From Bolinopsis microptera (taxonomy: Eukaryota > Ctenophora > Tentaculata > Lobata > Bolinopsidae), in assembly GCF_026151205.1 (NCBI RefSeq), contig NC_087075.1, positions 1,233,911 through 1,297,910 of the forward strand: a stretch of 64,000 bases of DNA, read 5' to 3'. The translations under genes were made by a program, and so were the position numbers. Shown one piece after another: positions 2,495 to 64,000 of the stretch; position 1 is the stretch's first letter, and each line of letters begins with the position of its first letter. Below the pieces are notes generated by a model, which had not been told where the DNA came from, made no database searches, and saw nothing but the letters and a program-made list of their open reading frames with translations.

Positions 2495-5400
2495 GCCCAA
2501 GAAAGGGTCCAGCAAACCCCACACCCCCAAGTCCCCGCAAGAAGACAAGACGCCTAATCCCTTGGAAACTGCCGTTATCACTGACGAAGCTCGTATTGCT
2601 GCAATGATCAAACTCAAAACAAACTTTGAGCAGCGCTTCGAGAAAATTCTGATCCCATGTTTCACGGGTATAGGAGATTGTTCCCACGATAAAACACTAG
2701 ACTACCGGCTCTATGATACAGTCTACTTACAAGTCCATCTCCCTGCAGTTAAACCAGAGCTAGTCCTTCTTTCCCAAAATGGCAGCTCCATAGTAGACTT
2801 CAGCAACGTGTGTATCGGCCAAACAAAGAAACTGGAGCTCACTCTAAAGAGTATCAGTGAGGACGAGGTCAGCTTATCAACCAGCGCATTCCCTCACGAC
2901 GGAACATTCCAGAAAGTTAACGCTACAAGAGATCTGGCCCCACTGGGATTACACCAGATGATATTAGAGTTTACCCCGCGGGCCAAGGCTAAGTACTACG
3001 AGGTGGTGGAGGTCAGAACGCAGAAGTCTACCTTGCACTTACATTTACACGGGTGTGGGGTGGAACCTAACCTGGTGGTGTCCCCGGATTCAGGTCAGTA
3101 CACGTCACAGTTACACTGTTTTAATCATTACCCACATTGTCGTAACTACATAATAAAAGTGGATCTGTGTTTCGTATAAAACATTACCTTGTGTTCAGGA
3201 ACGCTGGACCTGTGTTTCGTATAGAACATTACCTTGTGTTCAGGAACGCTGGACCTGTGTTTCGTATAGAACATTACCTTGTGTTCAGGAACGCTGGACC
3301 TGTGTTTCGTATAAAACATTACCTTGTGTTCAGGCACGCTGGACCTGTGTTTCGTATAAAACATTACCTTGTGTTCAGGAACGCTGGACCTGTGTTTCGT
3401 ATAAAACATTACCTTGTGTTCAGGAACGCTGGACCTGTGTTTCGTATAGAACATTACCTTGTGTTCAGGAACGCTGGACCTGTGTTTCGTATAGAACATT
3501 ACCTTGTGTTCAGGAACGCTGGACCTGTGTTTCGTATAAAACATTACCTTGTGTTCAGGCACGCTGGACCTGTGTTTCGTATAGAACATTACCTTGTGTT
3601 CAGGAACGCTGGACCTGTGTTTCGTATAGAACATTACCTTGTGTTCAGGAACGCTGGACCTGTGTTTCGTATAAAACATTACCTTGTGTTCAGGCACGCT
3701 GGACCTGTGTTTCGTATAAAACATTACCTTGTGTTCAGGAACGCTGGACCTGTGTTTCGTATAGAACATTACCTTGTGTTCAGGAACGCTGGACCTGTGT
3801 TTCGTATAAAACATTACCTTGTGTTCAGGAACGCTGGACCTGTGTTTCGTATAGAACATTACCTTGTGTTCAGGAACGCTGGACCTGTGTTTCGTATAGA
3901 ACATTACCTTGTGTTCAGGAACGCTGGACCTGTGTTTCGTATAGAACATTACCTTGTGTTCAGGAACGCTGGACCTGTGTTTCGTATAAAACATTACCTT
4001 GTGTTCAGGCACGCTGGACCTGTGTTTCGTATAAAACATTACCTTGTGTTCAGGAACGCTGGACCTGTGTTTCGTATAGAACATTACCTTGTGTTCAGGA
4101 ACGCTGGACCTGTGTTTCGTATAGAACATTACCTTGTGTTCAGGAACGCTGGACCTGTGTTTCGTATAGAACATTACCTTGTGTTCAGGAACGCTGGACC
4201 TGTGTTTCGTATAAAACATTACCTTGTGTTCAGGAACGCTGGACCTGTGTTTCGTATAAAACATTACCTTGTGTTCAGGCACGCTGGACCTGGGTCACGT
4301 GATGGTGGGCGAGATACTGCACGGAACATTTACTCTCAAGAACAACTCCGAAATAGATCTGCAGTACGGTATCTCCATGCTCAGCGAGAAGTCGGAAGTG
4401 GTCCAAGCTTTTAGTGGCCCCAGCCAAATTGGTACTTTAAATCTTGAACCTCTGTCATTTTACCTTTATAATCCAGATTTACCTTGCTGGCATAATTGTG
4501 AATTGTAAACGTATATCTTTCTACCCAATGACATTTCCGAGTGTCTGAATATAGTACTCTAGTTATAGTAGGATATATAGTATAGTACTCTAGTTATAGT
4601 AGGATATATAGTATAGTACTCTAGTTATAGTAGGATATATAGTATAGTACTCTAGTTATAGTAGGATATATAGTATAGTACTCTAGTTATAGTAGGATAT
4701 ATAGTATAGTACTCTAGTTATAGTAGGATATATAGTATAGTACTCTAGTTATAGTAGGATATATAGTATAGTACTCTAGTTATAGTAGGATATATAGTAT
4801 AGTACTCTAGTTATAGTAGGATATATAGTATAGTACTCTAGTTATAGTAGGATATATAGTATAGTACTCTAGTTATAGTAGGATATATAGTATAGTACTC
4901 TAGTTATAGTAGGATATATAGTATAGTACTCTAGTTATAGTAGGATATATAGTATAGTACTCTAGTTATAGTAGGATATATAGTATAGTACTCTAGTTAT
5001 AGTAGGATATATAGTATAGTACTCTAGTTATAGTAGGATATATAGTATAGTACTCTAGTTATAGTAGGATATATAGTATAGTACTCTAGTTATAGTAGGA
5101 TATATAGTATAGTACTCTAGTTATAGTAGGATATATAGTATAGTACTCTAGTTATAGTAGGATATATAGTATAGTACTCTAGTTATAGTAGGATATATAG
5201 TATAGTACTCTAGTTATAGTAGGATATATAGTACTCTAGTTATAGTAGGATATATAGTATAGTACTCTAGTTATAGTAGTATAATAAATATAGTACTCTA
5301 GTTATAGTAGTTATAGTAGGATATATAGTATAGTACTCTAGTTATAGTAGTTATAGTAGGATATATAGTATAGTACTCTAGTTATAGTAGTTATAGTAGG

Positions 5401-8400
5401 ATATATAGTATAGTACTCTAGTTATAGTAGTTATAGTAGGATATATAGTATAGTAGGGTTCCTGCTAATTTATCACAACATACCTACATGTTGAGATGAT
5501 AACTGTAGTATATATAGTACTCACAACAGGGAACAGTAACAAGTCGGGCATATTACCGTTCCAGTGCACCCCACACAGCGGTAATATACCACTATATCAC
5601 AACAGGGAACAGTAACAAGTCGGGCATATTGCCGTTCCAGTGCACCCCACACAGCGGTAATATACCACTATATCACAACAGGGAACAGTAACAAGTCGGG
5701 CATATTACCGTTCCAGTGCACCCCACACAGCGGTAATATACCACTATATCACAACAGGGAACAGTAACAAGTCGGGCATATTGCCGTTCCAGTGCACCCC
5801 ACACAGCGGTAATATACCACTATATCACAACAGGGAACAGTAACAAGTCGGGCATATTGCCGTTCCAGTGCACCCCACACAGCGGTAATATACCACTATA
5901 TCACAACAGGGAACAGTAACAAGTCGGGCATATTACCGTTCCAGTGCACCCCACACAGCGGTAATATACCACTATATCACAACAGGGAACAGTAACAAGT
6001 CGGGTATATTACCGTTCCAGTGCACCCCACACAGCGGTAATATACCACTATATCACAACAGGGAACAGTAACAAGTCGGGAATATTGCCGTTCCAGTGCA
6101 CCCCACACAGCGGTAATATACCACTATATCACAACAGGGAACAGTAACAAGTCGGGCATATTACCGTTCCAGTGCACCCCACACAGCGGTAATATACCAC
6201 TATATCACAACAGGGAACAGCAACAAGTCGGGCATATTACCGTTCCAGTGCACCCCACACAGCGGTAATATACCACTATATCACAACAGGGAACAGTAAC
6301 AAGTCGGGCATATTACCGTTCCAGTGCACCCCACACAGCGGTAATATACCACTATATCACAACAGGGAACAGCAACAAGTCGGGCATATTACCGTTCCAG
6401 TGCACCCCACACAGCGGTAATATACCACTATATCACAACAGGGAACAGTAACAAGTCGGGCATATTACCGTTCCAGTGCACCCCACACAGCGGTAATATA
6501 CCACTATATCACAACAGGGAACAGCAACAAGTCGGGCATATTGCCGTTCCAGTGCACCCCACACAGCGGTAATATACCACTATATCACAACAGGGAACAG
6601 TAACAAGTCGGGCATATTGCCGTTCCAGTGCACCCCACACAGCGGTAATATACCACTATATCACAACAGGGAACAGTAACAAGTCGGGCATATTACCGTT
6701 CCAGTGCACCCCACACAGCGGTAATATACCACTATATCACAACAGGGAACAGTAACAAGTCGGGCATATTACCGTTCCAGTGCACCCCACACAGCGGTAA
6801 TATACCACTATATCACAACAGGGAACAGTAACAAGTCGGGCATATTGCCGTTCCAGTGCACCCCACACAGCGGTAATATACCACTATATCACAACAGGGA
6901 ACAGTAACAAGTCGGGCATATTACCGTTCCAGTGCACCCCACACAGCGGTAATATACCACTATATCACAACAGGGAACAGTAACAAGTCGGGCATATTAC
7001 CGTTCCAGTGCACCCCACACAGCGGTAATATACCACTATATCACAACAGGGAACAGTAACAAGTCGGGCATATTACCGTTCCAGTGCACCCCACACAGCG
7101 GTAATATACCACTATATCACAACAGGGAACAGTAACAAGTCGGGCATATTACCGTTCCAGTGCACCCCACACAGCGGTAATATACCACTATATCACAACA
7201 GGGAACAGTAACAAGTCGGGCATATTACCGTTCCAGTGCACCCCACACAGCGGTAATATACCACTATATCACAACAGGGAACAGTAACAAGTCGGGCATA
7301 TTACCGTTCCAGTGCACCCCACACAGCGGTAATATACCACTATATCACAACAGGGAACAGTAACAAGTCGGGCATATTACCGTTCCAGTGCACCCCACAC
7401 AGCGGTAATATACCACTATATCACAACAGGGAACAGTAACAAGTCGGGCATATTACCGTTCCAGTGCACCCCACACAGCGGTAATATACCACTATATCAC
7501 AACAGGGAACAGTAACAAGTCGGGCATATTACCGTTCCAGTGCACCCCACACAGCGGTAATATACCACTATATCACAACAGGGAACAGTAACAAGTCGGG
7601 TATATTACCGTTCCAGTGCACCCCACACAGCGGTAATATACCACTATATCACAACAGGGAACAGTAACAAGTCGGGTATATTACCGTTCCAGTGCACCCC
7701 ACACAGCGGTAATATACCACTATATCACAACAGGGAACAGTAACAAGTCGGGCATATTACCGTTCCAGTGCACCCCACACAGCGGTAATATACCACTATA
7801 TCACAACAGGGAACAGTAACAAGTCGGGAATATTACCGTTCCAGTGCACCCCACACAGCGGTAATATACCACTATATCACAACAGGGAACAGTAACAAGT
7901 CGGGCATATTACCGTTCCAGTGCACCCCACACAGCGGTAATATACCACTATATCACAACAGGGAACAGTAACAAGTCGGGCATATTACCGTTCCAGTGCA
8001 CCCCACACAGCGGTAATATACCACTATATCACAACAGGGAACAGTAACAAGTCGGGCATATTACCGTTCCAGTGCACCCCACACAGCGGTAATATACCAC
8101 TATATCACAACAGGGAACAGTAACAAGTCGGGCATATTACCGTTCCAGTGCACCCCACACAGCGGTAATATACCACTATATCACAACAGGGAACAGCAAC
8201 AAGTCGGGCATATTACCGTTCCAGTGCACCCCACACAGCGGTAATATACCACTATATCACAACAGGGAACAGTAACAAGTCGGGCATATTACCGTTCCAG
8301 TGCACCCCACACAGCGGTAATATACCACTATATCACAACAGGGAACAGTAACAAGTCGGGCATATTACCGTTCCAGTGCACCCCACACAGCGGTAATATA

Positions 8401-14400: not shown

Positions 14401-15376
14401 CAGGTACCTTACTTTTATCTGCTCTCTGAGTGCTCCTAAACAGGTACCTTACCTTTATCTGCTCTCTGAGTGCTCCTAAACAGGTACCTTACCTTTATCT
14501 GCTCTCTGAGTGCTCCTAAACAGGTACCTTACCTTTATCTGCTCTCTGAGTGCTCCTAAACAGGTACCTTACCTTTATCTGCTCTCTGAGTGCTCCTAAA
14601 CAGGTACCTTTCTGCAATTTCTTACTGGTACAGTGCAAACGAGATGTTGATAAGATTCCTGTCCATGAAGCTAGAAAATGTGGTTTTAACAAATTGTAAT
14701 AATCAATTGTTCAGTAATTGCTATTTCCATGTTTTAGTGAATCTAACCTCCCTACCAGACGTTTAGTGAAACCGTCAGTATTGGAAACTGTCGTGGGGCT
14801 GGTGTGAAGGCTGACGCTATCAACTCTAAGGACAAGGCCCCCAAGGTACCTTAAACATTTCTAGGCCTTTTTCTGGATCATCAATGTAGTGTTTTTCGAA
14901 TATGGGTTATAAATTATTTTAAGTTAAGATTAACTGAATTCGAAATTAACTGCGATAACATTATCTATCTCAGCCGAGTGGAGACTTCGCGTTTGATCCT
15001 CTGAAGGCAGATTATGGGCCACTGGTTAAGGCTTTGGTTATCAACCCTCCAAAGGTAGTATAAACTTACTAAAAATCATTACCACAAGAAATATAGAAAC
15101 AATTTTAAATGTTTATAAACATTAAAAATTCTTTTTATAAATAAAAAGAATTGAGCAATCATTTTTTCGCAATTTCATTTACAATGTTCAATTAACATTT
15201 TACTTCGACAGGGCTCCGTAGAATCGTGCACAAATGTTCCGGTGACGTTTCAATTCAGTCCTCCTAAGGAGTTGGCTGAAGTTGGTTCAAGACTTCAGTT
15301 CAATACCATGTTAACACTCAAAGGAGAGACAATCGAGCAGTTTAGGGTTAACTTTGTGGCAGAAATTGTCAAATGA
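2495..15376 (+). CDS. CFAP74: CFAP74-like cilia and flagella associated protein, 3' part (8 exons)
   Basis: Exons in consistent phase: 2495(gap)-3093, 4279-4431, 13208-13359, 13497-13596, 14183-14283, 14759-14845, 14974-15054, 15212-15376 (TGA at 15374), about 478 codons. The protein is a string of ASH/MSP-type immunoglobulin-like modules. Visible signatures are VDFSNVCIGQTKKLEL and LDLGHVMVGE (the 'DFG.V.vG' strand), FQCTPHSGNIPRGETQEV and VTVKFNPDH ('P..G.i..g....v.F.P'), and a C-terminal VTFQFSPPKE strand followed by LKGETIEQFRVNFVAEIVK. CFAP74 is an axonemal central-apparatus protein in this superfamily. The order of modules and the C-terminus match my recollection of CFAP74 better than HYDIN, CFAP65 or CFAP47, but the paralogue is not proven. 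The N-terminal part is missing at the gap. Exons 2 and 3 start inside the last copy of tandem arrays, and exons 4 and 5 end in the first copy of such arrays. Confidence 0.75.
3160..4292 (+). repeat. 45-bp acceptor-type array (about 25 units) before CFAP74-like exon 4279-4431
   Basis: Units of 45 bp, each ending with the acceptor ttgtgttcag and followed by g(a/c)acgctggacctg, the first 14 nt or so of the exon that starts at 4279. Two sites vary between units (a/g in gtataRaac, a/c after ttcagg). In the exon's frame the unit has an early TAA, so use of an upstream acceptor copy would truncate the protein. The long ORFs on both strands across this array are repeat artefacts. Confidence 0.95.
4546..5455. 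repeat. 31-bp tandem array (about 28 units), 40-bp variants at its right end
   Basis: AT-rich 31-bp unit containing agtactctagttatagtagg. The last four or so units are 40 bp, with an internal duplication of ttatagtag. It lies about 110 bp inside the intron after 4431. No exon edge is recognisable in the unit, so it is not clearly junction-anchored, unlike most other arrays here. Confidence 0.9.
5516..13269 (+). repeat. 76-bp acceptor-type array, about 102 units, before CFAP74-like exon 13208-13359
   Basis: Largest array in the window, about 7.7 kb. Each 76-bp unit has the acceptor tatatcacaacag followed by about 60 nt identical or nearly so to the start of the exon at 13208, which encodes NSNKSGILPFQCTPHSGNIP. 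The exon reads out of the final unit in phase (GG completes the split Gly codon). Polymorphic sites include gggCatatt/gggTatatt/gggAatatt, attAccg/attGccg and acagTaac/acagCaac. The attGccg form occurs mainly in the left third and gggTatatt mainly in the right half. One unit near 12730 carries a 2-bp insertion. Confidence 0.97.
13570..13920 (+). repeat. 39-bp donor-type array (about 9 units) after CFAP74-like exon 13497-13596
   Basis: The unit comprises gttagtttttag plus about 26 nt matching the exon's 3' end (cagaaccctctgtcac to acacac), so each copy ends in a potential donor acacac|gttagt. The first copy is the real exon edge (cagaaccatctg). In the exon frame the donor itself gives CGT TAG, so read-through stops at once. 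Confidence 0.93.
14246..14615 (+). repeat. 40-bp donor-type array (9 units) after CFAP74-like exon 14183-14283
   Basis: Each 40-bp unit is about 30 nt of exon 3' end (tttatctgctctctgagtgc through cctaaacag) plus gtaccttac of the intron. Each unit has a potential donor acag|gtacct. The first copy is coding (VFICSLSAPKQ). Confidence 0.94.
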
Positions 15377-57100: not shown

Positions 57101-60100
57101 AGTGCTAGAGGTAACTAGTGAGGGGAGGGGCTGGTTAGTGAGGGGAGGGGCTGGTTAGTGATGGGACTGGAGACCCTGCAGAGACATCAGGAGGGGCTGA
57201 TGAAGCAGCTGGGGCTGGTCGTGCTCAGTGCTAGAGGTAACTAGTGAGGGGAGGGGCTGGTTAGTGAGGGGAGGGGCTGGTTAGTGAGGGGACTGGAGAC
57301 CCTGCAGAGACATCAGGAGGGGCTGATGAAGCAGCTGGGGCTGGTCGTGCTCAGTGCTAGAGGTAACTAGTGAGGGGAGGGGCTGGTTAGTGAGGGGAGG
57401 GGCTGGTTAGTGATGGGACTGGAGACCCTGCAGAGACATCAGGAGGGGCTGATGAAGCAGCTGGGGCTGGTCGTGCTCAGTGCTAGAGGTAACTAGTGAG
57501 GGGAGGGGCTGGTTAGTGAGGGGAGGGGCTGGTTAGTGATGGGACTGGAGACCCTGCAGAGACATCAGGAGGGGCTGATGAAGCAGCTGGGGCTGGTCGT
57601 GCTCAGTGCTAGAGGTAACTAGTGAGGGGAGGGGCTGGTTAGTGAGGGGAGGGGCTGGTTAGTGAGGGGACTGGAGACCCTGCAGAGACATCAGGAGGGG
57701 CTGGTGAAGCAGCTGGGGCTGGTCGTGCTCAGTGCTAGAGGTAACTAGTGAGGGGAGGGGCTGGTTAGTGAGGGGAGGGGCTGGTTAGTGAGGGGACTGG
57801 AGACCCTGCAGAGACATCAGGAGGGGCTGATAAGGCAGCTGGGGCTGGTCGTGCTCAGTGCTAGAGGTAACTAGTGAGGGGAGGGGCTGGTTAGTGAGGG
57901 GAGGGGCTGGTTAGTGATGGGACTGGAGACCCTGCAGAGACATCAGGAGGGGCTGATAAGGCAGCTGGGGCTGGTCGTGCTCAGTGCTAGAGGTAACTAG
58001 TGAGGGGAGGGGCTGGTTAGTGAGGGGAGGGGCTGGTTAGTGATGGGACTGGAGACCCTGCAGAGACATCAGGAGGGGCTGATAAGGCAGCTGGGGCTGG
58101 TCGTGCTCAGTGCTAGAGGTAACTAGTGAGGGGAGGGGCTGGTTAGTGAGGGGAGGGGCTGGTTAGTGATGGGACTGGAGACCCTGCAGAGACATCAGGA
58201 GGGGCTGATGAAGCAGCTGGGGCTGGTCGTGCTCAGTGCTAGAGGTAACTAGTGAGGGGAGGGGCTGGTTAGTGAGGGGAGGGGCTGGTTAGTGATGGGA
58301 CTGGAGACCCTGCAGAGACATCAGGAGGGGCTGATAAGGCAGCTGGGGCTGGTCGTGCTCAGTGCTAGAGGTAACTAGTGAGGGGAGGGGCTGGTTAGTG
58401 AGGGGAGGGGCTGGTTAGTGAGGGGACTGGAGACCCTGCAGAGACATCAGGAGGGGCTGATGAAGCAGCTGGGGCTGGTCGTGCTCAGTGCTAGAGGTAA
58501 CTAGTGAGGGGAGGGGCTGGTTAGTGAGGGGAGGGGCTGGTTAGTGAGGGGAGGGGCTGGTTAGTGATGGGACTGGAGACCCTGCAGAGACATCAGGAGG
58601 GGCTGGTGAAGCAGCTGGGGCTGGTCGTGCTCAGTGCTAGAGGTAACTAGTGAGGGGAGGGGCTGGTTAGTGAGGGGAGGGGCTGGTTAGTGATGGGACT
58701 GGAGACCCTGCAGAGACATCAGGAGGGGCTGATGAAGCAGCTGGGGCTGGTCGTGCTCAGTGCTAGAGGTAACTAGTGAGGGGAGGGGCTGGTTAGTGAG
58801 GGGAGGGGCTGGTTAGTGAGGGGACTGGAGACCCTGCAGAGACATCAGGAGGGGCTGATAAGGCAGCTGGGGCTGGTCGTGCTCAGTGCTAGAGGTAACT
58901 AGTGAGGGGAGGGGCTGGTTAGTGAGGGGAGGGGCTGGTTAGTGATGGGACTGGAGACCCTGCAGAGACATCAGGAGGGGCTGGTGAAGCAGCTGGGGCT
59001 GGTCGTGCTCAGTGCTAGAGGTAACTAGTGAGGGGAGGGGCTGGTTAGTGAGGGGAGGGGCTGGTTAGTGATGGGACTGGAGACCCTGCAGAGACATCAG
59101 GAGGGGCTGATGAAGCAGCTGGGGCTGGTCGTGCTCAGTGCTAGAGGTAACTAGTGAGGGGAGGGGCTGGTTAGTGAGGGGAGGGGCTGGTTAGTGATGG
59201 GACTGGAGACCCTGCAGAGACATCAGGAGGGGCTGATAAGGCAGCTGGGGCTGGTCGTGCTCAGTGCTAGAGGTAACTAGTGAGGGGAGGGGCTGGTTAG
59301 TGAGGGGAGGGGCTGGTTAGTGATGGGACTGGAGACCCTGCAGAGACATCAGGAGGGGCTGATAAGGCAGCTGGGGCTGGTCGTGCTCAGTGCTAGAGGT
59401 AACTAGTGAGGGGAGGGGCTGGTTAGTGAGGGGAGGGGCTGGTTAGTGATGGGACTGGAGACCCTGCAGAGACATCAGGAGGGGCTGATAAGGCAGCTGG
59501 GGCTGGTCGTGCTCAGTGCTAGAGGTAACTTCAGGCTTCATGTTGGTGACTGTTCGTAGTACTGGCTTACCTTGATCTTCAACAATAAAGGTCGTTCGTC
59601 TTTTAGAAAAAGAATTTATGTTATATGAGATCCTTAATATCATCTCGAAACCACCCTAATCTCACTAAACATTGTCTCCCCAGAGAAAGTACCACGTCTC
59701 CACTTCCTATCTGAGGACGATCTGTTATCAGTGCTGACTAACGCTGACTCTCTAGCTACTGCTAAGCACGTCACCACTGCCTGCTTCCCTCATATCCTGG
59801 ACATTACTGTGGAACCTCGTATGGACGAGAAAGATCGTTAGTTTTATTTATTTGTGTTACACACACTATTTAAATATACATAATATACTAATTTAGTATA
59901 TATTATATACTAACTTAGTATATATTATATACTAACTAATTAAGTATATATTATATTATACTAGTTAATGAAGTATATATTATATACTAATTAATTAAGT
60001 ATACATTATATACTAATTAATTAAGTATGTATTATATACTAATTAATTAAGTATATATTATATACTAATTAAGTATATATTATATACTAATTAAGTATAT

Positions 60101-63100
60101 ATTATATGTACTAATTTATTAAGTATATATTATATACTAATTTTAAAGTATATATTATGTAATAATTACTAATCCTGATTGGTTTTTCATCTGCTTTAAT
60201 TCATGAGTGCAATGTTAGCATCTTAACCTTACTGAGTCGGGAAAAGATCAGAAATGTTTTAACGCTTCATAAAACGCATGGTAGAGGCAACAAATACAGG
60301 CACAATGGAAGAGATTAGCATTTAACAATAAGCAATAACACTCCTGATCAAGAAATCCTACTTTACTTGATCCTGTTTTACTTGATCCTGTTTTACTTGA
60401 TCCTGTTTTACTTGATCCTGTTTTACTTGATCCTGTTTTACTTGATCCTGTTTTACTTGATCCTGTTTTACTTGATCCTGTTTTACTTGATCCTGCTTTA
60501 CTTGATCCTGTTTTACTTGATCCTGCTTTACTTGATCCTGTTTTACTTGATCATGTTTTACTTGATCCTGTTTTACTTGATCCTGTTTTACTTGATCCTG
60601 CTTTACAAAAAACGTCCTGCTTTTTACTAAAGCTTACCTTGTAGTTTTTCCAGCACCAAAGATTACACACATCCACGGTATTGGTGGGGAAGTAGTTCCG
60701 TTGATACAGCCTGTTATTCTATCCGCTAAACTTCTTGAATGGTTCGTACTCCTCGTTATCGGGATTTTACTACTATTTGTTTAAAAAACTGAGTGGAGAC
60801 TCTCATTTTGTCCCAAAACATCAACTATAGTTTTTAATTTAATTTATTTGAATTTTAAAATTATAATTAAATACATTTACAGAGTTTGTAGTCTAGTTAG
60901 ACTAAACCCTGACTAAATATCATACAACGTTTCGTCTCATTTGTCTTCATGTAGACAGTACTGTGTTCATTTACAGTTAAAAATTAATCGGTTGCCGTAT
61001 TCCAGGTTACCCCAGCTCCAGGCTATGATAGTATCCACCCTAACAAGCTGATGTATTCCAGGTTACCCCAGCTCCAGGCTATGATAGTATCCACCCTAAC
61101 AAGCTGATGTATTCCAGGTTACCCCAGCTCCAGGCTATGATGGTATCCACCCTAACAAGCTGATGTATTCCAGGTTACCCCAGCTCCAGGCTATGATAGT
61201 ATCCACCCTAACAAGCTGATGTATTCCAGGTTACCCCAGCTCCAGGCTATGATAGTATCCACCCTAACAAGCTGATGTATTCCAGGTTACCCCAGCTCCA
61301 GGCTATGATAGTATCCACTCTAACAAGCTGATGTATTCCAGGTTACCCCAGCTCCAGGCTATGATAGTATCCACTCTAACAAGCTGATGTATTCCAGGTT
61401 ACCCCAGCTCCAGGCTATGATAGTATCCACCCTAACAAGCTGATGTATTCCAGGTTACCCCAGCTCCAGGCTATGATAGTATCCACTCTAACAAGCTGAT
61501 GTATTCCAGGTTACCCCAGCTCCAGGCTATGATAGTATCCACTCTAACAAGCTGATGTATTCCAGGTTACCCCAGCTCCAGGCTATGATAGTATCCACCC
61601 TAACAAGCTGATGTATTCCAGGTTACCCCAGCTCAAGGCTATGATAGTATCCACCCTAACAAGCTGATGTATTCCAGGTTACCCCAGCTCCAGGCTATGA
61701 TAGTATCCACTCAAACAAGCTGATGTATTCCAGGTTACCCCAGCTCCAGGCTATGATAGTATCCACTCTAACAAGCTGATGTATTCCAGGTTACCCCAGC
61801 TCCAGGCTATGATAGTATCCACCCTAACAAGCTGATGTATTCCAGGTTACCCCAGCTCCAGGCTATGATAGTATCCACACTCCACAACATGATGCACTAC
61901 TCTTTGCTTAATGTGGAGAAAACTGAGCTGAAGTGTGGACTCCTGGAATCTTTACTTGGGGACCTGAACGTTCAGGTTCTTGTTAAATGTTAATCACTTG
62001 TACTCTAGTAGTACACTCAACTCCACTCTAGTATTGACATTATAGTTATACTATCTCTCACCTTCTGGACTAGTATTTGTACTTTTCAATTGTAAGGATG
62101 TTAGTGCTCCAAGTAACTTTTTGCCTCAACTGTGCCCAGGAATTTCAATTTTGTGCCCAAGGTGTGCCCCAGGAATTGCAATTTTGTGCCCCAGGTGTGC
62201 CCCAAGTGGTCCTAGCTAGATTACCAACTGGCCTACTTACGTACACAATAGTTATCACTATCTAGTGCTGTGTGTCTCCGATTATTTGCACTTTTGTAAA
62301 GTTACCCTTTACACAACACTAACTTATTATTAACTGATTAATATGCCTCCTACCCTCAGAGTGATCCCTACTCAGAGAGCGGCTCTCACAAGAAATACAT
62401 ACAAACGGAGGGAAATATCCAAACCTGGCTCGCTGATTACCCCTTCCAGGTCAGTTACCCTTTTTCAGTTACCCTTTATTACCCGATTCATGTTCAAAAC
62501 ACCTTTAATTTGGTTATGCTTTTTTAACTTCATTAATGTTTTCAATTCAAATGTTTATTATCGGAAAGATTAATAATTATACTGAGTACGCGCATTAAAC
62601 AACAGTAATTTTACTGTTAATGTCTTAATTAATAAATTAGTTTCCAGCGCAACCTCCCAACAAGGCTGTGTTGGTGAAGCTGGGTATTTTAAGGGTAGAA
62701 CCAGAAGATAACACATATAACCCCTCTAGTGTATCCTGACTACACATAACGTGGTTTTCACCATCAATCTGAGTCAGTGGATTAGCAAGAGAATTAGCTA
62801 CGCAGATATCAAGTGAGTGCCACCCCCTCTTTTTAGAAGTGCCACTCCCTCTTTTTAAGTACCACTCCCTCTTTTTTAGTGCCACTCCCTCTTTTTAAGT
62901 GCCACTCCCTCTTTTTAAGTGCCACCCCCTCTTTTTAAGTGCCACTCCCTCTTTTTAAGTGCCACTCCCTCTTTTAAAGTGCCACCCCTCTTTTTAAGTG
63001 CCACCCCCTCTTTTTAAGTGCCACCCCCTCTTTTTAAGTGCCCCTCTCTCTTTTTAAGTGCCACTCCCTCTTTTTAGAAGTGCCACTCCCTCTTTTTAAG

Positions 63101-64000
63101 TTCCACCCCCTCTTTTTAAGTACCACTCCCTCTTTTTAAGTGCCACCCCCTCTTTTTAAGTACCACCCCCTCTTTTTAAGTGCCACTCCCTCTTTTTAAG
63201 TGCCACCCCCTCTTTTTAAGTGCCACTCCCTCTTTTTAAGTGCCACCCCCTCTTTTTAAGTGCCACCCCCTCTTTTTAAGTGCCACCCCCTCTTTTTAAG
63301 TGCCCCTCTCTCTTTTTAAGTGCCACCCCCTCTTTTTAAGTTCCACCCCCTCTTTTTAAGTGCCACCCCCTCTTTTTAAGTGCCACTCCCTCTTTTTAAG
63401 TGCCACCCCCTCTTTTTAAGTGCCACCCCCTCTTTTTAAGTACCACCCCCTCTTTTTAAGTGCCACTCCCTCTTTTTAAGTGCCACCCCCTCTTTTTAAG
63501 TGCCACTCCCTCTTTTTAAGTGCCACCCCCTCTTTTTAAGTGCCACCCCCTCTTTTTAAGTGCCCCTCTCTCTTTTTAAGTGCCACTCCCTCTTTTTAGA
63601 AGTGCCACCCCCTCTTTTTAAGTGCCACTCCCTCTTTTTAAGTGCCACTCCCTCTTTTTAAGTGCCACTCCCTCTTTTTAAGTGCCACTCCCTCTTTTTA
63701 AGTGCCACTCCCTCTTTTTAAGTGCCACTCCCTCTTTTTACGTGCCACCCCCTCCAGTGATGGTAGTAAGTCATACCAGAAAGAATTATTTCAATTGGGC
63801 ACTCAGTGACTGAGCTATAAAGGCCAACGTATGGGTACTGACTTTTGCCCCCCCCCCCCCCCCCTGTTTAAATATACTTGTTTTCAGTTTTGACAAGCCC
63901 CTTTCTCAATATTTTCACGTCTTGTCAATTAGTAAAGAGACATAATTAACACTATAATGCATCTTGAATAATAACGGGTCAAACATAATAGAAGATTTTT
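15736..64000 (+). CDS. Axonemal dynein heavy chain, tail and linker (34 exons, continues beyond the window)
   Basis: Thirty-four exons join without a phase break: 4229 nt, about 1409 codons, starting [12 protein letters not shown]. Tail signatures: [19 protein letters not shown], then SLSKWLRN and [16 protein letters not shown] (the 'QW.RE..FRKFR.WK.F..W' block of axonemal tails). DHC_N2/linker signatures: [15 protein letters not shown], then [12 protein letters not shown] (canonical TWLYLEPIF), [13 protein letters not shown] (canonical FFLSNDELLEIL), [11 protein letters not shown] (canonical GEWVPL) and finally [18 protein letters not shown], which in the family lies just before AAA1. Family members are about 4000-4600 aa, so the AAA+ motor and stalk (roughly 3000 aa) should follow to the right. 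The tail block resembles the single-headed inner-arm group (DNAH6/DNAH14-like); the orthologue is not assigned. All introns are GT-AG. Several contain nested genes, and most long ones contain junction-anchored arrays. Confidence 0.93.
16621..16722 (+). repeat. 51-bp two-copy duplication spanning the acceptor of dynein exon 5
   Basis: Two copies (16621-16671 and 16672-16722) each carry actaatattaatctaa, a pyrimidine tract, the acceptor cccag and the first 22 nt or so of exon 5 (VEKVALLT). Use of the upstream acceptor (exon start 16649) would add 17 in-frame codons without a stop, so both could be functional alternative acceptors. Confidence 0.85.
17205..17296 (+). repeat. Three-copy 22-bp repeat just before the acceptor of dynein exon 7
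   Basis: Near-identical units of cttgtcacgtgatcaccgct type, the last running into the acceptor ctctctcag at 17296. The pyrimidine-rich acceptor tract is itself part of the unit (gctctc), so this is a small acceptor-side duplication. Confidence 0.7.
17470..17617 (+). repeat. 23-bp donor-type array (about 6 units) after dynein exon 7
   Basis: Units of gtattattataataaatataatg type begin exactly at the donor (aatg|gtatt) of exon 7, and every unit recreates ataatg|gtatt. One unit is shortened. Confidence 0.85.
18300..18358 (-). repeat. tRNA-derived sequence (SINE head or tRNA relic)
   Basis: On the minus strand the sequence reads TGGTAGAGCACCGC (A-box-like D arm), then GTTACGAGG, then a hairpin AGCGG-ATCATAC-CCGCT: a perfect 5-bp stem and 7-nt loop in T-arm position, followed by CCGGCAC. 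The loop deviates from TTCRANY and no complete acceptor stem can be drawn, so it is not called a functional tRNA. Confidence 0.4.
18370..24190 (+). repeat. 68-bp acceptor-type array, about 85 units, before dynein exon 10
   Basis: Each 68-bp unit has the acceptor gtactcttctag plus about 50 nt matching the start of exon 10 ([17 protein letters not shown]). The final unit runs into the exon at 24140. Units from about 18426 to 21520 (some 45 copies) are identical. Substitutions and small indels appear only to the right of that (for example near 21525, 21645, 21770, 22168, 23086). In the exon frame the unit reaches tga after PGTL. Confidence 0.97.
24140..25824 (+). CDS. Dynein heavy chain exons 10-13 (tail, residues about 369-548)
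   Basis: Exons 24140-24292, 25201-25355, 25481-25547, 25659-25824. Exon 10 begins inside the last unit of the 68-bp array ([11 protein letters not shown]) and continues [18 protein letters not shown]. Exon 11 encodes [20 protein letters not shown], exon 12 [21 protein letters not shown] and exon 13 [20 protein letters not shown] to LLPNIASAG. All phases agree. The function of this tail stretch is inferred from position only; it is weakly conserved in the family. Confidence 0.85.
24288..24476 (+). repeat. 8-bp donor-type microsatellite (CCAGGTAA)n after dynein exon 10
   Basis: Exon 10 ends gctgaccag|gtaac, and the intron continues as about 20 copies of the octamer CCAGGTAA, which is the exon end plus donor itself. 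Every unit is therefore a consensus CAG|GTAA donor. Confidence 0.93.
24580..25168. repeat. 7-bp microsatellite (CTACATA)n
   Basis: About 80 copies of the heptamer in the intron between dynein exons 10 and 11, interrupted three times by an 'ag' variant (ctaagata). The ORFs of LHTTYYI repeats are artefacts. It ends about 30 bp before the acceptor of exon 11 and does not contain exon sequence. Confidence 0.95.
25761..25948 (+). repeat. Two-copy duplication spanning the donor of dynein exon 13
   Basis: The last 64 nt of exon 13 ([20 protein letters not shown]) plus the donor and about 12 intronic nt (25761-25838) recur at 25872-25948, separated by a ctttct-rich spacer. The second copy retains an intact donor, cagcag|gtactt, and differs by only a few substitutions. 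Confidence 0.9.
26162..29164 (-). CDS. Secreted protein with two F5/8C-like plus cysteine-rich modules, nested in a dynein intron
   Basis: Three exons on the minus strand join in phase: 29164-28662, 28455-28226, 26664-26162 (1236 nt, 411 aa). The N-terminus is signal-peptide-like ([16 protein letters not shown], hydrophobic), followed by a PTT low-complexity stretch of about 17 units. Two homologous modules follow. Module 1: [44 protein letters not shown], then a Cys-rich part with [15 protein letters not shown] and [13 protein letters not shown]. Module 2: [38 protein letters not shown], then [14 protein letters not shown] and [13 protein letters not shown]. The 'W..v.L...fCV..V.I' pattern is like F5/8 type C (discoidin) or fucolectin folds, which bind glycans or lipids; that is inference. 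An APDT repeat sits in module 2. The minus-strand placement inside a + strand intron implies its own promoter. Confidence 0.72.
27041..27120. promoter_or_regulatory. Four 20-bp units, each with E-box-like CACGTG/ACGTGACGTG and CRE (TGACGTCA)
   Basis: Four tandem units of acgtgacgtgacgtcatacc type (the third has acatgacgtg). Each holds a full TGACGTCA palindrome, the CREB/ATF consensus. The block is flanked by a two-copy 55-bp segment (26975-27031, 27119-27175). It lies inside intron 2 of the nested gene; enhancer activity is inference. Confidence 0.5.
27205..27890 (+). mobile_element. Possible degenerate non-LTR retrotransposon 3' end
   Basis: AT-rich sequence with a broken ORF (27211-27468, 85 aa, no decisive RT motif) is followed by further frame-shifted coding-like pieces. 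It ends with a GC-richer tail, gtgccgggtgctgcctccgg, then a short (aatc)n run at about 27866-27882. A microsatellite 3' terminus of this kind is typical of CR1/L2-type elements. No reverse transcriptase catalytic motif is visible, so this is tentative. Confidence 0.3.
28497..28667 (-). repeat. 20-bp donor-type array (8 units) after exon 1 of the nested gene
   Basis: On the minus strand each unit reads gccag|gtaagttggaacctt, so every copy has a near-perfect CAG|GTAAGT donor. The first copy is the true exon 1 edge, cccaa|gtaagttgg. It shows that junction-anchored arrays are not limited to the + strand genes. Confidence 0.92.
28905..29068 (-). repeat. 9-bp coding repeat encoding a PTT low-complexity stretch
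   Basis: About 18 copies of a 9-bp unit (ggtgttgtt on the + strand) inside exon 1 of the nested gene, encoding repeated Thr-Pro-Thr triplets directly after the signal peptide region: an extended, probably O-glycosylated linker. The frame is maintained because 9 is a multiple of 3. The repeat ORFs in other frames are shadows. Confidence 0.85.
29165..30564. other. Dynein intron sequence right of the nested gene
   Basis: AT-rich. Acceptor-like sites (caattttag and ataaagacag on the minus strand) lie 15-35 bp upstream of the nested gene's ATG. A 42-codon ORF at 29459-29587 (+, [17 protein letters not shown]) has coding-like composition but no context. An 11-bp aaaatgaacta repeat (about 6 copies) lies at 30330-30395. 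Nothing else is supported. Confidence 0.5.
30565..32945 (+). CDS. Dynein heavy chain exons 14-20 (tail, residues about 549-863)
   Basis: Exons 30565-30739, 30804-30972, 31289-31405, 31864-31965, 32317-32485, 32588-32700, 32847-32945. Exon 14 carries [19 protein letters not shown], and exons 15-19 are charged helical segments ([26 protein letters not shown]-type), as expected of the helical-bundle tail. The 3' edge of exon 14 (gagaa|gttacc) is inferred from phase and is the weakest junction. Exon 20 ends [17 protein letters not shown] at the 47-bp array. Confidence 0.87.
30942..31165 (+). repeat. 31-bp donor-type array built purely from exon sequence (dynein exon 15)
   Basis: The last 31 nt of exon 15 (30942-30972, encoding [10 protein letters not shown]) are repeated about 7 times downstream with g/a changes. 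The donor gtataagg used after exon 15 is the start of the second copy, so the 5' splice site is derived from coding sequence. The last unit is degenerate (catgtataagtag). Confidence 0.93.
31388..31470 (+). repeat. Two-copy duplication spanning the donor of dynein exon 16
   Basis: The segment ctgtacagcgctttacaa|gtaaccagattta (exon end, donor, intron start) recurs with a 50-bp offset (tacagcgctt at 31391 and 31441), giving a second intact donor. Confidence 0.85.
31977..32140. repeat. 11-bp tandem repeat (about 15 units)
   Basis: Units of cgtgtctgtca begin about 12 bp after the donor of dynein exon 17. The unit length makes all three frames open ([10 protein letters not shown] peptides), which are artefacts. 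No exon edge is included. Confidence 0.9.
32903..34360 (+). repeat. 47-bp donor-type array (about 31 units) after dynein exon 20
   Basis: The unit is gtgag plus 42 nt of exon 20's 3' end (tactgtaaccctaacactga through cctcta). Each copy has a potential donor cctcta|gtgagt. Variants at the last exon base (ctAgtg, ctTgtg, ctCgtg) are scattered through the array. The gtaaccctaac part resembles telomeric DNA by chance; it is coding in copy 1 (CNPNTD). Confidence 0.96.
34361..35160. other. Dynein intron 20, stretch between two arrays
   Basis: AT-rich with a 20-bp triplicate (gtattgaaaaccaattaacg) at about 34750-34810. A 44-codon coding-like ORF at about 34848-34981 ([16 protein letters not shown]) has no partner signals. 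No gene is supported. Confidence 0.5.
35172..35872. repeat. 33-bp tandem array (about 21 units)
   Basis: Unit tggcgtaacgttaccactgc plus 13 nt of attgtagttgtag or atttctgtagtaa type. The length is a multiple of 3, so long ORFs (290 aa +, 233 aa -) arise on both strands; these are rejected as genes. The array lies mid-intron, and no flanking exon edge is recognised. Confidence 0.93.
36233..36268. promoter_or_regulatory. Paired CRE sites upstream of the Ly6-like genes
   Basis: Two TGACGTCA palindromes (36234-36241 and 36255-36262) in 21-bp repeats of gtgacgtcacgtgataat type, about 390 bp upstream of the first Ly6-like ATG. CREB/ATF binding and promoter function are inference. Confidence 0.45.
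36650..37192 (+). CDS. Ly6/uPAR-like GPI-anchored surface protein, copy 1
   Basis: Single coding exon of 180 aa. Signal peptide [17 protein letters not shown], cleavage before VKCYSGC. Ten cysteines in the mature domain end with CETEKCN, matching the Cys-Asn end of Ly6/three-finger domains. Next comes a Gly/Glu/Lys-rich linker ([14 protein letters not shown]) and a hydrophobic tail, [19 protein letters not shown], typical of a GPI signal. An acceptor-like cacattatag lies 11 bp upstream of the ATG, so a 5' UTR intron or trans-splice site is likely. AATAAA at 37269 is a plausible polyadenylation signal. It is nested in the intron between dynein exons 20 and 21, same strand, and paired with a paralogue 320 bp downstream. 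The ligand is unknown. Confidence 0.65.
   Translation: MLRCLLLTLAVVSATSAVKCYSGCVAGTIEMAGQSQGYPGGECTDDTTAMCEAGCVTVSLKFDYEMEVGETKMEGSADATTAMCSMGNANDNLCDTMKSSMESTMGAVSNLKCGVSAPCETEKCNDPAKSGGNSESDGGEGEGEGEGEGKGEGKGEGESSSFAVHGVSFVLFSAVLGLLY
37513..38070 (+). CDS. Ly6/uPAR-like GPI-anchored surface protein, copy 2
   Basis: Single coding exon of 185 aa, a clear paralogue of the gene at 36650: signal peptide [17 protein letters not shown], mature start [12 protein letters not shown], ten Cys ending CDTFKCN. The central block [20 protein letters not shown] is almost identical to copy 1. The acidic linker (EGESEGEDD) has lost the Lys seen in copy 1, and the tail [19 protein letters not shown] is GPI-signal-like. 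An acceptor-like ttacccttag lies 16 bp upstream of the ATG. AATAAA is at 38085-38090. The conserved middle against diverged ends suggests recent duplication with selection or partial conversion. Confidence 0.65.
   Translation: MLRCLLVTCAVLSATNAVKCYSGCVAGTMTMAGQEQQYPGGACTKATVAVCEVGCATAYLAFDYEMEVAETKMEGSADATTAMCSMGNANDNLCDTMKSSLESTMGAVSNMKCKISTCDTFKCNDPAKFGGNGESDGTESEGKSNGAEAEGDAEGEGESEGEDDSSFTVHGVSFVLFPALLGLLC
38494..40925 (-). CDS. Galectin-like secreted protein with four CRD-like domains, one-base frameshift
   Basis: Reading 40925 to 38494 on the minus strand gives 810 aa if one missing base is allowed. Signal peptide [20 protein letters not shown], then four galectin-type domains in an A-B-A-B order. 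A domains start HIFSADKN...LKKPLEVGD and contain [18 protein letters not shown] and [10 protein letters not shown] domains start GPGIPF.TT and contain AWGIYA.GS, MNSK/LNSK, GW.(T/S)E and WTD..LP. They keep the NS...W..E core but have replaced the His and Asn of the H-N-R sugar-binding triad (VADFRP), so galactoside binding is doubtful. A C-terminal domain of about 150 aa ([20 protein letters not shown] onward) is unrecognised. The frameshift lies in 40651-40661: 11 nt where the paralogous domain has 12. It may be an assembly error or a real lesion. The coding part is intronless. Confidence 0.78.
40926..41492. other. Dynein intron 20, right end, containing the galectin-like gene's upstream region
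   Basis: AT-rich. No TATA box or repeat array was recognised. No acceptor AG lies in the 50 bp upstream of the galectin-like ATG, unlike the other nested genes, so this gene probably has its own transcription start nearby. Confidence 0.4.
41493..43820 (+). CDS. Dynein heavy chain exons 21-26 (tail to start of linker, residues about 864-1093)
   Basis: Exons 41493-41600, 41844-41942, 42430-42600, 42717-42822, 43082-43204, 43738-43820. The encoded series [79 protein letters not shown] and [18 protein letters not shown] follows the DHC_N2 order (R.RHW..I, then W....F.L..Y, then L.. D.I...LDDH). All phases agree. Exon 25 ends at a 54-bp donor-type array. Confidence 0.9.
42243..42326 (-). repeat. 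tRNA-derived element, SINE-like
   Basis: On the minus strand GGCTGCGTGGCTCAGTTGG gives an acceptor-like start and A box. TGCTTGTTAATCGCG is an anticodon arm with a GTT (Asn-like) triplet, and GGCTCGATTCC is B-box-like. GGCTG can pair with a 3' CAGCC, but the spacing after the T arm is too long for a real tRNA. The unique-looking flank continues to about 42050 (minus-strand downstream) and may be the SINE body. It lies in dynein intron 22. Confidence 0.5.
42838..42935. repeat. Telomere-like interstitial repeat (CCCTAA-type)
   Basis: Irregular units of ctaaccctaaaccctaacc with cccgaag interruptions, in dynein intron 24 just after the donor. Flanked by coding exons on both sides, it is an interstitial patch, not a chromosome end. 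Confidence 0.8.
43146..43656 (+). repeat. 54-bp donor-type array (about 9 units) after dynein exon 25
   Basis: The unit is gtaa plus 50 nt of exon 25's 3' end (gtactgggagtgcagggagt through ccctaaac). Each unit recreates aaac|gtaagt. The unit is a multiple of 3 and open in the exon frame, so use of the second donor would insert 18 residues ([18 protein letters not shown]). The second copy has an extra attac that introduces TAA. Confidence 0.94.
44208..44948 (-). CDS. GST-like protein, copy A of six
   Basis: 246 aa starting [12 protein letters not shown]. The C-terminal half is a GST C-terminal helical domain ([20 protein letters not shown] is the conserved 'l.Gd..t.AD' N-cap motif, then [16 protein letters not shown]). 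The N-terminal half follows a thioredoxin-fold layout ([23 protein letters not shown] equivalent to 'QS.AI.RYLG'), but the usual Tyr near residue 25-30 is not visible (KMMLTSRMQ), so glutathione chemistry is uncertain. A conserved acceptor (aacattatag) lies 17 nt upstream of the ATG, so the longer ORF start [10 protein letters not shown] is rejected. The C-terminus is EDQIQGDIH. It is one of six tandem genes in dynein intron 26. Confidence 0.85.
   Translation of the reverse strand: MTLTNPEKVETGPLEPIKSKVVKMMLTSRMQIGEANQKIACDTKLANYMDHCPEWLKAKDDTSKNWMDLDNKMTESIAVVRAIGAAWFLIPDDPEQFKKCEEIEKILFSIMNTMVYLINKICFAPNSTECNDFDVEYARTRFLTKFAPKAAALEELITGPFIMGDTLPVHADYLLYACLYDINVFCPGAYDKFDKLSVFMDKFLHYPSPIRRWFKTNESKSGEYIRPPTPHIMDLLPEDQIQGDIH
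45275..46015 (-). CDS. GST-like protein, copy B (mosaic)
   Basis: 246 aa. Its N-terminal half matches copy D ([19 protein letters not shown] and [15 protein letters not shown]), while its C-terminal half is identical to copy A ([26 protein letters not shown]). That is the pattern of a gene-conversion or crossover product. The flanking DNA on both sides also matches copy A. Same acceptor 17 nt before the ATG. Confidence 0.86.
   Translation of the reverse strand: MTLTNPEKVETGPLEPIKSKVVKMILTSRMQIGEANQKIACDTKLANYMDHCPEWLKSKDNSSKNWMDLDNKMTETIAVVRAIGAEWFLIPDDAANQAKCEEIEKILFSIMNTMVYLINKICFAPNSTECNDFDVEYARTRFLTKFAPKAAALEELITGPFIMGDTLPVHADYLLYACLYDINVFCPGAYDKFDKLSVFMDKFLHYPSPIRRWFKTNESKSGEYIRPPTPHIMDLLPEDQIQGDIH
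46333..47073 (-). CDS. GST-like protein, copy C
   Basis: 246 aa, N-terminal half as copy A ([31 protein letters not shown]) but with [20 protein letters not shown] in the C-terminal domain and the A/B-type end DQIQGDIH. Upstream sequence (ttttcaaggtag acceptor, 14 nt before the ATG) matches copy F, not A or B. Same predicted fold as copy A. Confidence 0.86.
   Translation of the reverse strand: MTLTNPEKVETGPLEPIKSKVVKMMLTSRMQIGEANQKIACDTKLANYMDHCPEWLKAKDDTSKNWMDLDNKMTESIAVVRAIGAAWFLIPDDPEQFKKCEEIEKILFSIMNTMVYLINKICFAPNSTECNDFDVEYARTRFLTKFAPKAAALEELITGPFIMGDTLPVHADYLLYASLYDINVFCPGALEKHAKLSVFMDKFLHYPSPIRRWFKTNESKSGEYIRPPTPHIMDLLPEDQIQGDIH
47518..48258 (-). CDS. GST-like protein, copy D (most diverged)
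   Basis: 246 aa starting MTLANPEK. Distinct in the C-terminal domain: [66 protein letters not shown], end EDMGQGDIA. The N-terminal half is of the type also seen in copy B. The acceptor ttcatttag precedes the ATG by about 20 nt and the upstream DNA matches copy E. It is separated from copy C by 444 bp. Confidence 0.86.
   Translation of the reverse strand: MTLANPEKVETGPLEPIKSKVVKMILTSRMQIGEANQKIACDTKLANYMDHCPEWLKSKDNSSKNWMDLDNKMTETIAVVRAIGAEWFLIPDDAANQAKCEEIEKILFSIMNTMVYLINKICFAPNSTECNSFDVEYARTRFLTKFAPKAKAIEDLLDGPFIMGDTLPVYADYLLYACLYDINVFCLGAYDKSPKLVEFMDKFLHYPSPIRRWFRTNDAKTGEYIRPPVPHIMDLLPEDMGQGDIA
48569..49309 (-). CDS. GST-like protein, copy E
   Basis: 246 aa, almost identical to copies C and F ([31 protein letters not shown]) with the end EEMGQGDIA. 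Upstream sequence and the acceptor before the ATG match copy D, another exchange of flanks between copies. It lies 310 bp upstream of copy D. Confidence 0.86.
   Translation of the reverse strand: MTLTNPEKVETGPLEPIKSKVVKMMLTSRMQIGEANQKIACDTKLANYMDHCPEWLKAKDDTSKNWMDLDNKMTESIAVVRAIGAAWFLIPDDPEQFKKCEEIEKILFSIMNTMVYLINKICFAPNSTECNDFDVEYARTRFLTKFAPKAAALEELITGPFIMGDTLPVHADYLLYASLYDINVFCPGALEKHAKLSVFMDKFLHYPSPIRRWFKTNESKSGEYIRPPTPHIMDLLPEEMGQGDIA
49619..50359 (-). CDS. GST-like protein, copy F (first of the array in transcription order)
   Basis: 246 aa starting MTLTNPEK; the upstream-extended start ([19 protein letters not shown]) is rejected because it runs through the acceptor ttttcaaggtag. The protein is like C and E, with the end EDMGQGDIA. 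As the most upstream gene on the minus strand it may carry the array's main promoter, in the 1.3 kb between here and dynein exon 27. Confidence 0.86.
   Translation of the reverse strand: MTLTNPEKVETGPLEPIKSKVVKMMLTSRMQIGEANQKIACDTKLANYMDHCPEWLKAKDDTSKNWMDLDNKMTESIAVVRAIGAAWFLIPDDPEQFKKCEEIEKILFSIMNTMVYLINKICFAPNSTECNDFDVEYARTRFLTKFAPKAAALEELITGPFIMGDTLPVHADYLLYASLYDINVFCPGALEKHAKLSVFMDKFLHYPSPIRRWFKTNESKSGEYIRPPTPHIMDLLPEDMGQGDIA
50360..51709. promoter_or_regulatory. 1.35-kb spacer with CCAAT, E-box and TATA-like signals
   Basis: No exon is seen. At 51255-51354 there is a compact cluster: cacgtgac, a CCAAT box (gattggtt), two cacatg E-box-like words and TATATAAA (51347-51354, + orientation). 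A second AT-rich TATA-like block lies at about 50808-50830. No + strand ORF follows, so the cluster could drive the minus-strand GST-like array or an unseen transcript. This is inference. Confidence 0.3.
51710..62812 (+). CDS. Dynein heavy chain exons 27-34 (linker, residues about 1094-1409)
   Basis: Exons 51710-51844, 55816-55911, 56813-56987, 59684-59836, 60654-60741, 61846-61975, 62360-62449, 62730-62812. Joined, [21 protein letters not shown] reproduces the spacing of the family's EWL..Q..WLYLEPIF, which fixes the splice across two arrays totalling 3.9 kb. Then come [60 protein letters not shown] and [20 protein letters not shown]. Exon 34 begins after cccctctag at 62729; an earlier AG (62645) gives stops. 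The frame is open at the last donor (atcaa|gtgagt), so the AAA1 exon must lie beyond the window. Confidence 0.92.
51835..54118 (+). repeat. 27-bp donor-type array (about 84 units) after dynein exon 27
   Basis: The unit gttagtcactattagtcaca plus taccaac contains the exon 27 end cataccaac and its donor gttagt, so each unit is a potential 5' splice site. In the exon frame the next unit stops (TAT TAG). The long [12 protein letters not shown] is in another frame and is an artefact. Blocks of rare variants (for example cacatacGaac, ccAatTaat-type) recur at about 1.2-kb distance, suggesting higher-order duplication. Confidence 0.96.
54146..55824 (+). repeat. 36-bp acceptor-type array (about 46 units) before dynein exon 28
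   Basis: The unit is tggctgtac (first 9 nt of exon 28, WLY) plus tccctgtataccttgtattg and tttacag, ending in a good acceptor. It is 12 codons long and in the exon's frame ([12 protein letters not shown]), closed only where tggctg is tgactg. After the last such TGA (about 55708) three units remain open, so upstream acceptors could add 12, 24 or 36 residues. Confidence 0.96.
55912..56812. other. Dynein intron 28, without a large array
   Basis: About 900 bp of AT-rich unique sequence with only a two-copy aaagttattggtggattt at about 56099-56139. No gene is supported; the 85-aa minus ORF at 56647-56904 overlaps exon 29 and is a shadow. Confidence 0.6.
56925..59528 (+). repeat. 126-bp donor-type array (about 20 units) after dynein exon 29
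   Basis: Each unit contains about 68 nt matching the end of exon 29 ([19 protein letters not shown] region through gctagag), the donor, and two copies of a 20-bp gaggggaggggctggttagt block. One unit near 58500 has three of these. Variants gatgaagcag / gataaggcag / ggtgaagcag and gtgaTggg / gtgaGggg alternate between units. The donor changes from gttagt (copy 1) to gtaact (later copies). Confidence 0.96.
59837..60653. repeat. Dynein intron 30: about 28-bp AT-rich repeat and a 15-bp repeat
   Basis: About 59878-60160 holds some 10 irregular units of tatatactaattaattaag. About 60358-60607 holds some 16 units of a 15-bp ttttacttgatcctg repeat, giving LILFY ORFs that are artefacts. Neither unit includes an exon edge. 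Confidence 0.88.
60995..61879 (+). repeat. 56-bp acceptor-type array (about 15 units) before dynein exon 32
   Basis: Each unit has the acceptor gctgatgtattccag followed by about 32 nt matching exon 32's start (gttaccccagctccaggcta, encoding [11 protein letters not shown]). The final copy continues into the exon at 61846. Variants: ccacCcta / ccacTcta, one catgatGgta and one ctcAagg. Confidence 0.96.
62812..63755 (+). repeat. 20-bp array (about 46 units) starting at the donor of dynein exon 34
   Basis: Units of aagtgccaccccctcttttt begin at the exon 34 donor, atcaa|gtgagtgcc. Each unit keeps aa|gtgc, a weak donor-like site, so this is a degenerate donor-type array with two nt or so of exon. 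Variants: cacTccc/cacCccc, taccacc, and occasional tttttagaagtg units. Confidence 0.9.
63756..64000. other. Right edge, intronic, with a poly-C run
   Basis: Intron after dynein exon 34. It contains poly-C at about 63847-63864 and otherwise unique AT-rich sequence; no exon was recognised before the window ends. Confidence 0.6.

Follow-up and report, generated by a model that had tools for sequence, protein, structure and literature searches.

The window analysed here, a stretch of 64,000 nucleotides from the genome of the ctenophore Bolinopsis microptera, raises the question of why the introns of its genes are filled with tandem copies of their own exon edges and splice sites. The initial annotation of this DNA proposed that random intronic arrays should rarely include an exon edge, and hence that either the mutational process or selection favours duplications across splice sites. 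Our analysis indicates that the underlying observation is sound, although it was over-interpreted.

Host genes of the arrays

The arrays are hosted by the genes for CFAP74 and for an axonemal dynein heavy chain, which are neighbours on the plus strand (Table 1). The G+C content of the window is 41.3%; the published table for the B. microptera assembly gives 38.5% (PMC11797021). Assignment of the first gene comes from a phmmer comparison of eight exons joined by hand, which matched the PDB sequence 9ijj_C with an E-value of 4e-34 (residues 8–356 aligned). The open frame at 2496–3176 resembles CFAP74. The alignment runs through the array borders at 3160 and 5521 and, where it weakens towards its end, through that at 13570; it does not reach the border of the array at 14253. 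The first CFAP74 exon of the window has one match in the genome, the window itself.

The dynein product matched 17 PDB sequences in all, most of them named dynein heavy chains (best match 9e5c_6c, E-value 1.2e-12), mainly over the linker region, and the border 51845/55816, which carries the arrays at 51857 and 54153, falls inside the alignment. The 5' start of this gene was left undefined and its span was counted from ∼ 16.7 kb. The gene may continue past the window, as a dynein stalk domain is found on the same strand 51 kb beyond the window end; no reliable dynein exon was found in the next 10 kb (C4:1297911–1307910). That segment has on its minus strand a cysteine-rich open frame with an acidic repeat tail, which we take to be Ly6-like. 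The introns of the dynein gene contain other genes. Between dynein exons, the minus strand carries a long open frame with four galectin-domain stretches (38494–40731) and six closely similar single-frame genes in tandem (44208–50431), which are weakly GST-C-like, the one tested scoring below the Pfam cut-off.

Table 1. Junction-associated arrays and host genes in the window (positions in nucleotides from the window start).
Feature	Position	Strand	Unit (bp)	Copies	Exonic nt	Evidence
Acceptor-spanning array	3160..4292	+	45	25.2	13	TRF and strict test
Acceptor-spanning array	5521..13270	+	76	101.9	63	TRF and strict test
Donor-spanning array	13570..13920	+	39	9.0	27	TRF and strict test
Donor-spanning array	14253..14610	+	40	8.9	31	TRF and strict test
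Acceptor-spanning two-copy duplication	16622..16722	+	51	2	23	TRF and strict test
Donor-spanning array	17469..17616	+	23	6.5	5	TRF and strict test
Array before dynein exon, acceptor in unit inferred	18393..24191	+	68	85.2	35	
Donor-derived array AGGTAACC, loose case	24305..24474	+	8	21		TRF and reading; strict test failed
Donor-spanning two-copy duplication	25774..25946	+		2	51	TRF and strict test
Array at donor of nested minus-strand gene	28507..28665	-			≤3	TRF
Array abutting donor, not spanning	30941..31165	+			1	Strict test
Donor-spanning duplication, loose case	31388..31470	+		1.6	18	Direct reading, absent from TRF list
Donor-spanning array	32903..34361	+	47	31.0	43	TRF and strict test
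Donor-spanning array	43154..43661	+	54	9.1	52	TRF and strict test
Donor-derived array, loose case	51857..54118	+	27	83.8	9 (in unit)	TRF and reading; strict test failed
Acceptor-spanning array	54153..55824	+	36	46.4	9	TRF and strict test
Donor-spanning array	56918..59530	+	126	20.6	72	TRF and strict test
Acceptor-spanning array	60997..61878	+	56	15.8	33	TRF and strict test
Array just inside donor, not spanning	62816..63754	+			0	Strict test
CFAP74, 3' part, exons broken up by arrays	2495..15373	+				phmmer of hand-spliced exons; end from open frame
Divergent axonemal dynein heavy chain, N-terminal part, nested genes in introns	16700..62811	+				phmmer

Arrays at exon–intron junctions

Arrays were called with TRF over the whole window, which yielded periods of 8–126 bp and 2–102 copies. 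The repeats are arranged head to tail, with units of minisatellite length, and the largest array comprises 102 copies over 7.75 kb. TRF recovered all the large arrays of the initial annotation with the periods given there, at the same starts or within ∼ 25 nt of them. At arrays of the donor type, the exon continues into the first unit, and at those of the acceptor type the last unit continues into the exon. Exon edges were placed by homology and by reading, with curation by hand, because an ab initio gene finder missed many CFAP74 and dynein exons and was dropped for the window junctions; on the myosin and CCT genes, which had formed part of its training, it recovered 92 of 103 profile exons (90 at another penalty).

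The strict test for spanning was that an array cover the junction and extend 4 nt or more to either side of it. Fifty-five junctions were defined in CFAP74 and the dynein gene, some dynein introns having only one end defined or none, and 13 of these lie strictly inside an array, including that at 18393, for which the acceptor within the unit is inferred (if the AG just 3' of the array were the acceptor, the array would be intronic). For the array at 60997, the acceptor is placed inside the unit because there is no AG between the array end and the coding sequence. Units that pass the strict test contain between 5 and 72 exonic nt. Three loose cases fail the strict test (24288 and 51857, with test values of -12 each, and 31388, with no array), and their overlap with the exon comes from reading: the 8-bp array of case 24288 has 4–5 exonic nt and is interrupted after the true donor, and the first copy of the array at 51857 has diverged. 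The array at 28507 has a mismatch at the last exonic base. The intron 51845–55815 carries both a donor array (51857) and an acceptor array (54153), whose units are unrelated. Adjoining the nested minus-strand gene is a 9-bp array of 17.8 copies (28908–29067) that stays open as a TPT repeat and could be either coding or an upstream intron.

Of the 19 arrays reported to hold an exon edge together with the splice site, 16 do so with at least 4 exonic nt, whereas those at 30942, 62812 and 28497 do not. The rarity of arrays lacking an edge, which the initial annotation singled out for explanation, is not borne out by number and fares better by length: 12 of the 27 arrays with scores of at least 100 in the CFAP74/DNAH span lack an edge, as do 18 of 33 when six arrays at 26.2–30.4 kb around the nested gene (one of them the 28497 case) are added, but arrays with an edge total 25.4 kb vs 4.2 kb for those without. 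Together, arrays take up 48% of the window, compared with 8.6% of 290 kb elsewhere in the genome; intron sequence persists outside them.

Splice signals in the copies

Ten arrays yielded 332 junction copies, counting the authentic copy of each, and all but one of these (331) keep the GT or AG dinucleotide; an eleventh array (126 bp) gave a single copy by this count and was omitted. By our own count, one of 20 columns in the splice core is variable vs 27 of 233 other columns, which is not a significant difference, and selection on the copied splice dinucleotides was rejected on this comparison. Read-through of the arrays meets an in-frame stop within 1.9 units in nine donor cases (one of them the abutting array at 30941) and within 2.9 units in five acceptor cases. 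Production of the proteins would thus require removal of the arrays by splicing, with the spliceosome picking a copy at the exon or adjacent to it from up to ∼ 100 near-identical ones. If so, these introns would be natural tests of splice-site choice, one of them offering ∼ 100 near-identical acceptors, with use of a copy near the exon imposed by the stops within three units in all 14 cases. Host-gene conservation was considered as a cause of the arrays, and bit scores compared by eye gave no clear trend.

Chance expectation within the window

Two null models were used for the number of spanned junctions. In the first, each array was collapsed to one unit, and the interior rate was taken as the chance that a point drawn at random inside the collapsed introns hits a unit. 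This rate is 1.0–2.1%, depending on the score threshold, which corresponds to about one of the 55 junctions, compared with the 13 seen (P = 1e-11 at scores of at least 100; like all P values for the window, it is uncorrected for the choice of this window by the initial annotation). In the second, stricter model, each unit was placed at random in its own collapsed intron. This null covers 22 arrays and omits four spanning arrays whose introns have one undefined end; 4.3 of the 22 are expected to span a junction and nine do so strictly (P = 0.0075), a number that rises to 11 when the loose cases 24288 and 51857 are counted (P = 0.0002). The expected fraction is high because the collapsed introns are short: of the 15 array-bearing introns for which both ends could be set, 14 collapse to 110–397 nt and one to 3.6 kb. 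The premise that random arrays should rarely include an edge left out this effect of intron length, although an excess is still seen once it is allowed for. Short ancestral introns account for a good part of the pattern in the window and may not explain all of it; a residual local excess is left on these numbers.

Exon edges elsewhere in the genome

The comparison sample was taken from myosin, CCT, dynein and kinesin genes in the same genome and consisted of 290 kb surrounding conserved exons, with 415 exon edges. These fall into 49 gene blocks, and a single gene can contribute several blocks (an earlier, smaller pass had covered 193 edges of myosin and CCT genes). Regions were picked by match clusters before their sequence was seen, using, among the matches listed, 30 of 35 for CCT, 71 of 73 for myosin, 70 of 72 for DHC_N2 and 59 of 109 for kinesin; for kinesin the longest clusters were left out, which may bias against array-rich introns and lower the array count. 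Forty-five of 460 edges had no acceptable splice site and were dropped, and for 18 of the 146 pairs of consecutive exons no intron was called. Two of the uncalled introns hold a large array (19 bp and 11 bp) that starts just inside the donor.

Six of the 415 sample edges are spanned, in five of the 49 blocks: five donors, with arrays of 40, 32, 30, 49 and 26 bp (∼ 2 copies each for the 49- and 26-bp units), and one acceptor, with a 49-bp array that is cut off by the end of the stretch. The interior rate of the sample is 0.29–1.3%, depending on threshold and method, and the excess of spanned edges over it ranges from 1.1- to 4.2-fold (P from 0.47 to 0.008 over six threshold and method versions); at scores of at least 100 it is 2.0 to 3.2 times the interior rate. 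All six spanned edges are at edges whose partner exon went uncalled, and no spanned edge was seen among the 256 that belong to the 128 fully called introns, against an expectation of 0.9 to 2.9. Founder units do show an excess in the 12 nt next to an intron end, both at scores of at least 50 (11 seen vs 3.9 expected, P = 0.002) and at scores of at least 100 (5 vs 1.1, P = 0.006); a Kolmogorov–Smirnov test of array position within the sample introns was not significant (P = 0.14 and 0.06, respectively). These end-leaning arrays touch the junction or come near it but do not cross it, and splice-site regeneration is therefore not the whole story. In other dynein genes, a 26-bp array of 86 copies (L033:5302–7534) and a 4.4-kb array with a 19-bp unit (L038) stop 1 nt before an acceptor or begin just inside a donor.

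The spanned fraction in the window is ∼ 16 times that in the sample (13/55 vs 6/415, Fisher's exact test, P = 3e-9), for two sets that were called differently, the sample junctions by script and with a preference for conserved exons, those of the window by hand; the interior array rate of the window is 1.6 to 3.9 times that of the sample. The window is a strong local outlier relative to the genome sample, and a general bias of arrays to junctions is weakly supported. A process or selection favouring junctions in general is not supported in the form that had been postulated. The initial annotation named as evidence against its view that arrays elsewhere overlap junctions no more often than permuted ones; our gene sample comes near that outcome without being a clean case.

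Origin of the arrays

We consider it probable that the arrays are mirage-type minisatellites (see below) that arose from ordinary duplications across junctions, are spliced out and expanded, without being strongly aimed at junctions, under an unusually high local load. The founding event would be a tandem duplication, some tens of bases long, across an exon–intron border, each copy carrying the exon edge and the splice site; the outermost, exon-proximal copy would keep the frame and the rest would become intron. Such a duplication would be close to neutral because each copy regenerates the edge and the splice site. Our results bear out duplication across a junction, its regeneration and the subsequent growth into arrays. 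Growth to as many as 102 copies would proceed by unequal exchange or slippage, with splicing presumably using the exon-proximal site. As the ancestral introns appear to have been short, a duplication of 30–80 bp touching an intron would often reach its edge, and the wide range of the exonic part in strictly spanning units is what loose placement predicts. Most of the pattern needs no attraction of duplications to junctions. The region, or its weakly conserved genes, would in addition bear an unusually high array load.

A rival reading is a regional hot spot, in which this part of C4 gathers arrays and its genes show them at junctions simply by exposure. The share of the window occupied by arrays fits this, as do the junction or donor-abutting arrays in three genes on both strands; however, with an interior rate only 1.6 to 3.9 times that of the sample, exposure alone falls short of 24% of junctions spanned, and we regard a hot spot as possible but somewhat doubtful. 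Targeting of junctions by a mutational process in some genes, for example through breaks from co-transcriptional splicing or R-loops, would account for the excess that short introns leave over in the window, and the clustering of founder units near intron ends in other genes and the raised rate of spanned edges at scores of at least 100 both point the same way. It is unlikely nonetheless, given that fully called introns have no spanned edge, that the end-leaning arrays do not cross the junction and that the position tests are not significant. In its boldest form, which we consider equally unlikely, a local process would seed duplications at junctions, or a few nucleotides from them, at more than 10 times the intron background in some genes, with introns growing outward from their junctions; the link could be co-transcriptional splicing or relaxed splicing fidelity in weakly conserved genes.

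The remaining explanations are much less probable. Birth of the introns themselves by tandem duplication of exonic AGGT segments follows a known model (PMC4974935), and the 8-bp unit AGGTAACC does contain AG|GT, but none of the 15 array-bearing introns defined at both ends collapses to less than 110 nt, they are longer than their units except at the shortest margins, and the donor and acceptor units in the intron 51845–55815 are unrelated; this origin is very improbable. We give about as little credence to selection for the arrays as redundant splice sites or for recursive splicing or control of intron length: nearly every copy retains its splice dinucleotide, but the other columns vary little too, units differ between introns, and both donor and acceptor types are present. 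An assembly artefact is the least probable of all. The B. microptera assembly was gap-filled and polished (PMC10232365), and copy numbers may be wrong; against an artefact, variants are present among the copies and, in the translation of the array at 51857, some can be seen by eye to recur in blocks, the unit sequence differs at every locus, and similar arrays occur on other contigs.

Relation to known systems

Minisatellite-like copies of exon–intron boundaries, termed mirages, are described in two papers on amphioxus, where they occur in Adh3, BflGb6, BflGb9, TnC and PGBD5, are of donor and acceptor types with many copies bearing splice signals, have units of 10–160 bp and are supported by RT-PCR (PMC3087553; PMC3902484). 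The ctenophore arrays, known here from DNA sequence alone, share with them the tandem minisatellite units that span boundaries and keep the splice signals. They differ in that the host is a ctenophore rather than a chordate, in their size, in the density of spanned junctions in two neighbouring genes and in the occupation of both ends of one intron. Judging from these structural features, they are probably new members of the mirage kind, in another phylum and at an unusual scale. Mirages were reportedly first described by Canestro in 2002, in NAR. If the assignment is correct, they are not restricted to lancelets, and their density can far exceed that of the described cases considered here; they would also offer a route by which short introns grow to kilobases without touching the protein. 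In the passages of ctenophore papers that we examined, junction arrays are not described.

In the Rogers model, a tandem duplication across an intron–exon boundary likewise inherits the splice signals (PMC4974935); there one duplication gives a new intron, whereas the window shows growth of introns already present and no new one. Tandem arrays also enlarge the introns of axonemal dynein genes in Drosophila. The giant introns of the Y-linked genes in that case are filled with simple satellites, which are not known to include exon edges, whereas arrays in the window do include them.

Other observations

Dynein heavy chain matches elsewhere in the genome include several in open frames of up to 3,703 amino acids, which suggests intron-poor, perhaps retroposed, copies beside the intron-rich ones. 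The stretches L018 and L019 (on C11, on opposite strands and ∼ 150 kb apart) contain two myosin-like copies whose matched pieces are 91–98% identical. A 72-bp unit is present in about three copies in L019 and in one copy in L018, at a site with no established exon.
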